Assembly (NCBI RefSeq): GCF_013280595.1
Contig: NZ_JAAATY010000030.1
Coordinates: 61,228-125,227 of the forward strand
Direction of reading: 5' to 3'
DNA from: Kibdelosporangium persicum
GTDB lineage: Bacteria; Actinomycetota; Actinomycetes; Mycobacteriales; Pseudonocardiaceae
Length of the DNA: 64,000 bases
In this document: in pieces, positions 28,081 through 29,875 of the stretch
How positions within the stretch are numbered: the first letter of the stretch is position 1
How the letters are laid out: each line of letters opens with the position of its first letter
Notes under the pieces: generated by a model
Databases searched by the model: none
What the model saw: the letters and a program-made list of their open reading frames with translations, nothing else
What the model was told of the DNA's origin: nothing
Made by a program: the position numbers and the translations under genes

Positions 28081-28161
28081 GGCGGGTTGCCCGAGTGGCC
28101 AAAGGGAGCTGACTGTAAATCAGCCGCGCAAGCTACGGCGGTTCAAATCCGTCACCCGCCA
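28081..28161 (+). tRNA. trnY: tRNA-Tyr (GTA anticodon)
   Basis: An 81-nt tRNA with the long variable arm usual for bacterial tRNA-Tyr: acceptor GGCGGGT pairs with ACCCGCC, anticodon loop CTGTAAA, T-arm GGTTCAAATCC. No CCA is encoded. Its 3' half and the following 120 bp are repeated 1.48 kb downstream, marking it as an integration site. Confidence 0.97.
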
Positions 28162-28279
28162 CGGGCTCAGGGCGACTCTGCTCGTTGCTTCGCAACTTCG
28201 CAGGGTCGCCCTTCCATCATTTTGGGGGGCCGAGCCCCCCACACCCCCCACGGTGCTTGCTCCGCACCTTCCAGCGCTG
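28117..28279 (+). repeat. Left copy of the element-flanking direct repeat (att site, tRNA side)
   Basis: It begins in the tRNA-Tyr anticodon loop and runs past the tRNA end through a hairpin-rich stretch (GGCGACTCTG...AGGGTCGCC and GGGGGGCCGAGCCCCCC). It matches 29594-29755 with only a few differences, near positions 28240-28250. Confidence 0.85.
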
Positions 28280-28361
28280 GCCGCGTTCGGCTCGGACCAG
28301 CGGCTCGACCCCGGCCGCGAGCCGGGCGTTCGCGCCTGATGTGGTTGCCTCCCCTTGTTAA

Positions 28362-28487
28362 GCGCCGTACGACCTGCGTCATGCGGCCGTGTCGCTGCGG
28401 GTGTACGCAAAGTGTCTGACGGTGGCGAACAAGAGGCCCGACGACGGGTACAGGAGGGGTTGGCCGGGCTGCAAGCAGACTCTGTAG
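28362..28487 (+). pseudogene. Tyrosine recombinase (integrase) C-terminal remnant
   Basis: The frame between a TAA at 28359 and a TAG at 28485 reads APYDLRHAAVS followed directly by LRVYAKCLTVANKRP. DLRHA is the box-II Arg region of actinomycete integrases and LRVYAKC carries the catalytic Tyr. The roughly 25 residues normally between them, with the second Arg and the GH pair, are missing, and so is the whole N-terminal part. There is no start codon. It is a deleted relic inside the tRNA-Tyr element. Confidence 0.7.
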
Positions 28488-28535
28488 AGCCCTCAACGAT
28501 CTTGATGGGACATCCATGGACCCCTATCCGTCGGC

Positions 28536-28576
28536 CTGGTGCACTTGTGCACCAGGCCGGTGTAGTATTGCACCGG
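28536..28576. promoter_or_regulatory. Tandem inverted-repeat operator upstream of the two-gene cassette
   Basis: CTGGTGCAC-TT-GTGCACCAG (28536-28555) is a perfect 9-2-9 palindrome, and CCGGTG-N8-CACCGG (28557-28576) is a second, looser one directly after it. They share the GGTGCAC core. They lie 90-130 bp upstream of the 73-aa gene and just before a strong GAGGAGG site, a position suited to autoregulation by the cassette's HTH protein. Confidence 0.55.
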
Positions 28577-28602
28577 GGTAGGCACGCACGAGGAGGACCG
28601 CC

Positions 28603-28725
28603 ATGTCAGGTGCGCAAAGGTCACATCCGGTGGCCGCTGCAAGATTCACACATCTTTGGAGCGGAAATGGCCAGTTCGGGTCGGCACCCGAAGAAAGAGA
28701 TTGCCGATGCGCTTCGCCGAGCTGA
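28603..28725 (+). CDS. Possible 40-aa leader peptide
   Basis: An ATG at 28603 follows the strong site GAGGAGGACC. The frame gives 40 residues (MSGAQRSHPVAAARF...) and ends at 28725, inside the 73-aa gene in another frame. It has no recognisable domain. It could be a leader peptide, or the binding site may belong to a lost start. Evidence is only the ribosome binding site. Confidence 0.25.
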   Translation: MSGAQRSHPVAAARFTHLWSGNGQFGSAPEERDCRCASPS

Positions 28726-28888
28726 AAAGATCGGGCTTGTCGTCCGAGAGATCGGCCGCGGTCACCGGTGGGGTGAGGTGATGTGCGAGCCATGTCGAGC
28801 AAGTCGGGGTATTTGGTCAACGCCTCGCGACCCAGGCACGCATGCCAAGCAGATCGACCGGTTTGCCGCGCAGCACACCCATGGCTAG
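28667..28888 (+). CDS. Small HicA-like protein with Cys pair (putative toxin-type partner)
   Basis: A 73-aa protein, pI basic. The start at 28667 follows GGAG with normal spacing. Order of features: SSGRHPKKE, a helix (IADALRRAEKIGL), a strand, then GRGHRWGEV, Cys-x2-Cys (CEPC), SRGIWSTPRDPGTHAKQI and RFAAQH. HicA toxins have a similar small fold with one catalytic His in a GSHH-like turn; GRGHRWG occupies that place. The CxxC between the strands suggests a zinc knuckle, which HicA lacks. The resemblance is by pattern only, so function is uncertain. The partner gene is 46 bp downstream. Confidence 0.7.
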   Translation: MASSGRHPKKEIADALRRAEKIGLVVREIGRGHRWGEVMCEPCRASRGIWSTPRDPGTHAKQIDRFAAQHTHG

Positions 28889-28934
28889 GTACTTTTAAGT
28901 CTCGATGGCCTGAAGCACAGAGAGGAGGTAGGCC

Positions 28935-29453
28935 GTGGCCGCACATGTGTTCACCTTAGTGCTCAATCGTCGGCCTACCGACAACGAGCTGGACGAGCTT
29001 TTCGCAGCAGGCTGCGATGACGCGTCGTTCGGCATGGAGGACAGTCTCCCGATCGCAGAATTCGATCGGGAGGCACCTACTATGGCAGACGCGATTGTTT
29101 CAGCGGTCCGCTCGGTTGAGTCGGTTGGGCTGGTGGCTGTTCGTGTTCTAGACCAGGACCTGGTGACCTTGGCCGATATTGCGGACCGCATCGGACAAAG
29201 TCGCGAGTCGGTGCGGCGGTATGCCACAGGCGCAAGAGGGAACGGGGGCTTTCCACCGCCCGTCAACCCCGTACGTGACGGCACCGTCTTCTACCGGTGG
29301 AGCGAAGTCGCGCCATGGCTCCGACAGCATCTCGGGATGGACGTATCTGATGCCGACCCGGCGCTAGTGGTGGCGAATCTGGTGCTCCAGGCTAGACAAC
29401 ACCGGGACCGGGTAGCTCACATGGCCGCGCTGTCAGAACTACTGATCGCGTAA
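28935..29453 (+). CDS. HTH-containing partner protein of the cassette
   Basis: A 172-aa protein starting GTG at 28935 after AGGAGG. The N-terminal half (about 1-70, HVFTLVLNRRPTDNELDEL) looks like a small alpha/beta domain. Residues 75-110 form an HTH of the excisionase/MerR kind (LVTLADIADRIGQSRESVRRYATG), followed by GGFPPPVNP, FYRWSEVAPWL and a helical tail (LVVANLVLQARQHRDRVAHM). It probably binds DNA, and the inverted repeats upstream are obvious candidates. An antitoxin-like role next to the HicA-like gene is inference. Confidence 0.75.
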   Translation: MAAHVFTLVLNRRPTDNELDELFAAGCDDASFGMEDSLPIAEFDREAPTMADAIVSAVRSVESVGLVAVRVLDQDLVTLADIADRIGQSRESVRRYATGARGNGGFPPPVNPVRDGTVFYRWSEVAPWLRQHLGMDVSDADPALVVANLVLQARQHRDRVAHMAALSELLIA

Positions 29454-29593
29454 ACGCCTGACGACTCCCCGGAAGGCCTACAACGAAGCGTGGCGTGGGC
29501 CATCCGTGGGCCCGTGGACACACTCCGCACTATGAGTACCACGTGTAATTCCAGGTCAGAAGGTACATGGATCTTGAGCGGCGAGCATTCTGC
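29454..29593. other. Short intergenic stretch before the right repeat
   Basis: Between the HTH gene and the right repeat I see no supportable gene or terminator. Confidence 0.5.
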
Positions 29594-29755
29594 AAATCAG
29601 CCGCGCAAGCTACGGCGGTTCAAATCCGTCACCCGCCACGGGCTCAGGGCGACTCTGCTCGTTGCTTCGCAACTTCGCAGGGTCGCCCTTCCATCATTTT
29701 GGGGGGCCGAGCCCCCACACTCCCCACGGTGCTTGCTCCGCACCTTCCAGCGCTG
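29594..29755 (+). repeat. Right copy of the element-flanking direct repeat
   Basis: It carries the 3' half of tRNA-Tyr (29594-29638) and the same downstream hairpin-rich stretch as 28162-28279. One difference is at the anticodon edge (CTGC instead of CTGT). It cannot make a functional tRNA because the 5' half is absent. Confidence 0.85.
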
Positions 29756-29875
29756 GGCACTTTCGCTGGGACCAGCGGCGCGGCTTCGCCGCGAAGCTAA
29801 GGGTCAAGGGCGTCGGGGTTGAGAATCGGGACCCCGCGAGTCGCACAAGATCGACTGTGTGTGATCATCATCTCC

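Follow-up and report, generated by a model that had tools for sequence, protein, structure and literature searches.

We analysed a stretch of 64,000 nucleotides from Kibdelosporangium persicum (contig NZ_JAAATY010000030.1, positions 61,228 to 125,227; hereafter the window) and looked at two small neighbouring genes, A and B, that lie in the remnant of a mobile element. A sequence-only reading of this DNA had proposed that these are the only intact genes kept in an otherwise decayed element, possibly as an undescribed toxin-antitoxin-like cassette. The first part of this proposal is borne out: A and B are the sole intact genes between two repeats that derive from a tRNA-Tyr gene, and what we could recognise of the remnant consists of the tRNA, the repeats, the broken 3' end of an integrase gene and the pair itself. 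Both open reading frames are present with the motifs that had been quoted (GRHPKKE, GRGHRWG, CEPC and WSTPRDP in the translation of A), and so are the ribosome-binding sites, which by eye are GGAG ahead of A and GAGAGGAGGT ahead of B. The two genes are on the plus strand with a gap of 46 bp between them. As for the proposed extent of the cassette, 28536 to 29453, its right limit is indeed the end of B, whereas no gene begins or ends at 28536. The features are collected in Table 1.

Table 1. Features of the remnant at the tRNA-Tyr gene (positions in the window).
Feature	Position	Strand	Remarks
tRNA-Tyr (GTA), insertion site	28081-28162	+	found by ARAGORN; its 3' 50 bases (28113-28162) are the left attachment (att) core
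Left copy of dispersed repeat	28163-28307		91% identical to right copy; follows tRNA-Tyr in sister genomes
Decayed 3' end of a tyrosine integrase gene of the type found in actinomycete integrative and conjugative elements (AICEs)	28302-28471	+	found by tblastn with the 463-aa integrase of L132
Predicted tandem operator	28532-28574		GGTGCACTTGTGCACC at 28538-28553 and GGTGTAGTATTGCACC at 28559-28574, 21 bp apart
Gene A, predicted HicA-like toxin, PDC-M06A	28667-28888	+	73 aa; conserved His33 in β1-β2 turn
Gene B, predicted antitoxin and repressor, PDC-M06B	28935-29453	+	172 aa; GTG start
Right-end sequence of element	29442-29589		83% identity between 29442-29639 and the right end of the 15-kb L132 element
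Right att core, copy of the 3' part of tRNA-Tyr	29590-29639	+	one mismatch to left core
Right copy of dispersed repeat	29640-29782		likely the original sequence downstream of the tRNA

The protein encoded by A gave no Pfam family up to E 10 and no NCBIfam match over cut-off. It matched no HicA sequence model, and PF07927 (HicA_toxin) is not among the best 25 of 40 Pfam families for 84 A proteins. Sequence searches of solved structures gave no significant match. The predicted structure of A is an α-β-β-β-α fold like that of double-stranded RNA-binding domains, as in HicA, with His33 placed in the β1-β2 turn, that is, at the position of the HicA catalytic turn. By profile, His33 aligns with the GSH of HicA and none of 200 shuffles scores as high, the comparison set being 15 sequences extracted from 21 HicA matches. 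The histidine is invariant in an alignment of 84 close A sequences (P0001 and 83 of its 93 relatives) as well as in 24 diverse open A sequences, and it is lost in A of the loci L023, L039, L044 and L045. The likeness to HicA that the sequence-only reading had suspected is therefore found in the predicted fold and in the conserved histidine, whereas the match itself is weak; we regard the HicA-like fold as weak but consistent. In our reading A would cut RNA, with His33 as the putative catalytic residue.

It had also been stated that HicA toxins lack a CxxC motif such as the one in A. This does not hold in general, since 7 of the 15 extracted HicA sequences carry CPCG or CACG directly after the His turn; they are the actinomycete HicA proteins at L052, L054, L056, L057, L058, L060 and L061. 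Within the wider A family the motif is not conserved (it is missing in L120, L123 and L124), because of which we discarded the idea of a zinc or CxxC protein for A. In its own genome (10.35 Mb, 89 contigs) A has one match, the window itself. Just ahead of A there is a further open reading frame of 40 codons (28603-28725) with a strong GAGGAGG site, which by eye begins 5' of A and overlaps its start in another frame. In L028 and L029, too, an ATG follows a purine-rich site in this place. This frame may be a leader that tunes the translation of A.

The structure model of B has an N-terminal domain of the β-α-β-β-α-β type (residues 1-74) followed by a winged helix-turn-helix (HTH) domain at about 75-134. 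The best structural matches of the N-terminal domain are RluB and metallochaperones. HicB, with its partial RNase H fold, is missing among the matches listed, although a likeness to it may still exist. Compared with HicB (12 of 15 matches), the profile of the N-terminal domain scored 14.9, with 3 of 100 shuffles as high; the alignment of B comprised 59 rows (P0002 and 58 of the 120 relatives listed). No HicB model was found among the Pfam and NCBIfam matches of B, and two weak HTH-like Pfam matches did not exceed their cut-offs. We therefore rejected B as a HicB protein, for which there is neither profile support nor a structural match among those listed: B is not recognisably HicB. Compared with the HicA-HicB systems, the pair thus shares the small first protein with its predicted α-β-β-β-α fold and the histidine in the β1-β2 turn, a DNA-binding domain in the second gene, and carriage by plasmids and phages. 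It differs in that A matches no HicA model and that B combines a predicted β-α-β-β-α-β domain with a winged HTH. The available part of PMC2701414, which sets out the criteria for HicAB, does not name the A-B pair.

Both proteins do match a known candidate family. A matches six PDC-M06A models of PADLOC (best 3.6e-14, weakest 1.5e-6) and B, the adjacent gene, matches the PDC-M06B model at 2.6e-20, so the pair falls within PDC-M06 as it is defined. PDC-M06 is a computational candidate only, and the tRNA setting and the palindromes described below are observations on this locus rather than taken from its definition. From what is available of PMC12988326, such PDCs are putative candidates, mostly without experimental validation, that come from a 'guilt-by-embedding' approach; the term 'PDC' does not occur in the accessible text of PMC8565338. 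Our literature search found no paper among 5.39 million that names PDC-M06, and no experiment on phage protection by it. Could the pair then be mainly an anti-phage module, in which B keeps A silent until phage attack releases A and growth stops? The matches to both PDC-M06 models and a weak match of B to mad1 of MADS (1.7e-4) point in this direction, as does the origin of the PDCs. That most of them lack validation counts on the other side, the remnant holds no defence gene besides the pair, and the carriage by phage-plasmids reported below would fit addiction or superinfection exclusion equally well. We consider this role unlikely as the main one, and note that it is compatible with a toxin-antitoxin reading.

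Upstream of A, 129 to 93 bp from its start, lies the tandem palindrome that the sequence-only reading had pointed out. At 28532-28559 two 13-nt arms form a perfect palindrome, which resolves into two 16-bp copies of the form GGTGYA-N4-TGCACC. Exact matches to GGTGYANNNNTRCACC occur in the window only at these two places; with one mismatch permitted the number rises to 4, where 0.43 would be expected. Among 137 loci, window copies aside, the exact pattern is found only in L025, L027, L028 and L030, always 5' of A. L027 and L028 have two exact copies each, 20 bp apart, L025 has one exact copy and a one-mismatch copy 20 bp away, and L030 has one exact copy. The copies in L029 are degenerate, L026 and L031 have none, and the flanks of L025-L031 gave no exact match in 81,402 bp. 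By eye, the second copy in the window contains a -10-like string; a consensus scan returned no sigma-70 promoter. We infer that B binds the palindromes, and it likely represses a promoter shared by both genes through them.

Next, we counted how often A and B occur together. Searches for loci with B gave 22 + 8 + 13 matches outside the window, of which 13 + 8 + 11 hold a full-length B by iterated profiles. Window copies were left out (L001, L004, L087, L095 and L117), as were nine of the first 22 loci, in which only the HTH is matched (L012, L014, L015, L017, L018, L019, L021, L022 and L024). A lies directly 5' of full-length B in 27 of the 32 loci by an iterated A profile that itself includes some of the loci counted, or in 29 if L032 and L128 are read by eye; with the un-iterated profile the figure is 17 of the 21 loci of the first two sets. 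Of the results that the sequence-only reading had named as refuting, neither a fold unlike HicA nor a rarity of the pair in other genomes was thus observed. In L023 the two genes are fused within one open reading frame, and in L011 and L031 B is split by frameshifts.

The two genes do not decay equally. For this count we added to the 32 loci seven with full-length B from the search with A (L034, L036, L037, L039, L040, L044 and L045); loci from that search with no full B were left out (L035, where A has stops and B was not found, L038, L041, L042 and L043). In 18 of these 39 loci A has an open frame, a start codon and the key histidine (L002, L005, L006, L010, L013, L016, L020, L028, L118, L120-L124, L126, L034, L036 and L037; A of L126 is divergent), and by eye the same is true of L128. 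A is open and lacks the histidine in four loci, namely L023 and three loci of a single genome (L039, L044 and L045). In L029 it is open, and by eye it has lost the RHPKK, GHRWG and STP motifs, although the profile still places a histidine there; in L003 it is open with an altered N-terminus. A stop, a frameshift, a missing start or a deletion breaks A in 11 loci (L007, L008, L009, L025, L027, L030, L031, L032, L040, L119 and L125), and A is absent from three (L011, L026 and L127). In total, and leaving L003 aside, A is lost or disabled beside an intact B in 17 of the 39 loci (10 broken copies, the four without histidine, L029, L026 and L127). Some of the genomes are fragmented drafts, so that errors of assembly may account for a few of the breaks; L027 is recorded as a chromosome of 10.1 Mb. 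The reverse case, in which A is open and B is reduced to its N-terminal domain and has no HTH, is seen in L129 and L130, which are outside the 39, and it cannot be counted fairly because the loci were selected for full B.

The open copies of A without histidine, one of them within the reading frame of B and three in one genome, may be non-catalytic parts of B-type regulators. In L038 and L043 we see A-like proteins with CPCG or CPCP motifs beside partners that have no HTH; these are perhaps sister families. We rejected the partners as shortened copies of B, since their likeness to B is weak or none (11 of 100 and 2 of 100 shuffles score as high).

In searches of 5.8 billion proteins A has 93 relatives and B has 697 (120 listed), and a diverse A profile has 452 (120 listed). 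None of the relatives listed carries a Pfam domain. Relatives of the pair span actinomycetes, phage-plasmids and cyanobacterial plasmids; Micromonosporaceae are among the named sources, and so are, in the case of A alone among the matches listed, Planctomycetes and Chloroflexota. At E 1e-3, relatives of B and A are found in 280 and 25 plasmid records and in 5 and 2 phage records, respectively. A is directly 5' of B in SSU5, in Cyrano, in the three plasmids examined and in the viral contig L033. On a Mycobacterium plasmid an A-like match just 5' of B appears only at E 8, and scans of viral contigs gave one locus for A and none for B. In the phage-plasmid Cyrano CYRAN_51 is related to A (1.7e-19) and CYRAN_50 to B (1.6e-45), in the same order, although the carrier there is not an AICE remnant. 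According to the part of PMC9928086 that we could access, the annotation of CYRAN_51 is HicA toxin and that of CYRAN_50 is putative antitoxin HicB, and both are expressed above the prophage background (table values 30 and 14); a toxicity test of the two is not found in that part. Since the pair has been annotated as HicAB in one phage-plasmid, and since both proteins match PDC-M06, it cannot be called undescribed. Ten proteins that neighbour the pair in L025, L026, L027, L028 and L030 are ordinary chromosomal proteins or belong to no family.

The carriage of the pair also bears on another explanation, namely that B serves the element as excisionase or as regulator of lysogeny, with A in a minor accessory role, and that the two are a regulatory relic which has survived by chance. 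B is matched with 95 bits (9.9e-27) by PHROG 2620 ('excisionase and transcriptional regulator'), and in the Gordonia phage Horus, where B is present and A is not detectable, the B-like gp52 lies near the integrase. However, the pair is also found on plasmids, of 29 other loci, which are 2-12.5 kb long, only two contain a tRNA, because of which we rejected insertion into a tRNA as a general habit of the pair, and a conserved partner A would be needless for an excisionase. Moreover, the related element of a sister genome, which we describe below, has an excisionase-like protein of its own with no significant BLASTP match to B. We find this explanation quite improbable.

The site of the pair was compared in 8 genomes of the genus. 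Five have an empty site (L133-L137, one core each in the 5.5-6 kb read), one holds a 15-kb element and two hold two-gene islets with unrelated pairs. In G363 (L132) the two cores are about 15.1 kb apart. Between them lie a 463-aa tyrosine integrase (Pfam 4.3e-4 and XerC 3.4e-9, both below cut-off) with an excisionase-like protein (below the model cut-off) directly 5' of it. The same interval also encodes proteins of the Prim-Pol (2.8e-29) and DUF3631 (6.1e-57) types and one of 877 aa that matches FtsK and Zot weakly. By these matches the element is AICE-like. The 50-bp tRNA-Tyr core of the window is 100% identical in L131 and L132, and the window DNA is 79-82% identical to L132 up to the integrase stop. 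The integrase sequence in the window was found in two pieces (E 8e-10) and is interrupted by a stop codon and an internal deletion. Because of this broken 3' end, and because the right end matches the element of L132, we take the window element to be a remnant, with the pair between the integrase end and the right attachment site (attR). The integrase of L132 has one match in the genome of the window, 30% identical.

With tRNA-borne att cores on both sides, the remnant is similar to AICEs and to cis-mobilizable elements (CIMEs), and the sister element in the same tRNA has an integrase, a Prim-Pol and a weakly FtsK-like protein. It differs from them in its size (1.48 kb from core to core), in having one toxin-antitoxin-like pair as its sole intact content and in having no working integrase. 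Two att cores without a working integrase are what is expected of a cis-mobilizable AICE remnant, so that the remnant would be movable by a related integrase. The direct repeats (28106-28307 and 29583-29782) begin within tRNA-Tyr and are longer than the 50-bp core because a dispersed repeat flanks the remnant on both sides. The right copy of this repeat is 82-83% identical to the sister genomes L133 and L134, as opposed to 77% for the left copy, and probably represents what originally followed the tRNA. The sequence of about 145 bp after tRNA-Tyr is a dispersed repeat in all 8 genomes (L096-L116), with 17-32 matches per genome, the tRNA locus counted (40 candidates scored).

One could argue that the pair is under no selection in this strain and just happens to be the part of the element that has not yet been deleted. 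Everything else in the element is gone or damaged, and A itself is broken in many relatives. Yet both reading frames, their ribosome-binding sites and the palindromes are intact beside an integrase piece with a stop and a deletion, and most differences to relatives fall on third codon positions. We therefore give hardly any credence to mere chance survival.

The second islet, in G364 (L131), has two copies of the same 50-bp core about 1.67 kb apart and, like the window remnant, two small genes between them. They encode a VapC-type PIN-domain protein (Pfam 9.9e-10; the NCBIfam VapC models are below their cut-offs) and an overlapping open reading frame of 82 aa with no family (L131:1770-2419). 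These proteins are unrelated to A and B, the genes are on the opposite strand, and no integrase remnant was found in this islet. Because of the latter, and because a longer repeat (520 columns, 80%) is common to its flanks, the history of this islet need not be the same as that of the window remnant.

In summary, A and B belong to a known but unvalidated candidate family, of which the first protein is HicA-like and the second is unlike HicAB. They are a conserved pair of adjacent small genes with a patchy and mobile distribution, as are type II toxin-antitoxin systems. The common travel across phyla, plasmids and phages, the HicA-like fold, the decay of A beside B and the palindromes fit a toxin-antitoxin (or defence) module, and to this extent the proposal of the sequence-only reading stands, its novelty apart. 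We put a probability of roughly 0.7 on A-B being a type II toxin-antitoxin operon in an AICE remnant, with an RNA-cutting A, a B that silences A and represses its own operon, retention by addiction, and a remnant that is cis-mobilizable. An AICE-type element that carried the pair between its integrase gene and attR would have inserted into tRNA-Tyr and would later have lost most of its length by deletion, the functional part of the integrase included. B would bind A and silence the predicted toxin, and the pair would be kept because a cell that loses B is left with the longer-lived A. Selective retention as addiction had already been suggested; the PIN pair at the same repeat in G364 strengthens this idea, which is still inference.

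A broader claim, to which we would give slightly less than even chances, is that such pairs form a separate toxin-antitoxin class, in which a HicA-fold RNase is combined with a β-α-β-β-α-β and excisionase-like winged HTH antitoxin, in actinomycetes, cyanobacterial plasmids and enterobacterial phage-plasmids, and that one tRNA-Tyr site has independently been reduced to toxin-antitoxin-only islets in sister species, with A-B in one and the PIN pair in another, which would amount to a natural experiment on addiction.

The pair represents a widespread family for which we found no Pfam or NCBIfam entry and which is listed only as an unvalidated phage-defence candidate. The predicted fold, the conserved histidine and the conserved palindromes give this family a concrete mechanism that can be tested. 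What interests us most is the setting, together with the different pair that a sister genome has. It has long been debated whether toxin-antitoxin pairs on chromosomes stabilise the DNA that surrounds them. Here, one tRNA site in one genus is found in three states (empty, with a 15-kb element, and with two-gene islets), so that the idea of stabilisation can be tested by deletion; at the tRNA-Tyr site one could ask directly whether such pairs keep foreign DNA in the chromosome.
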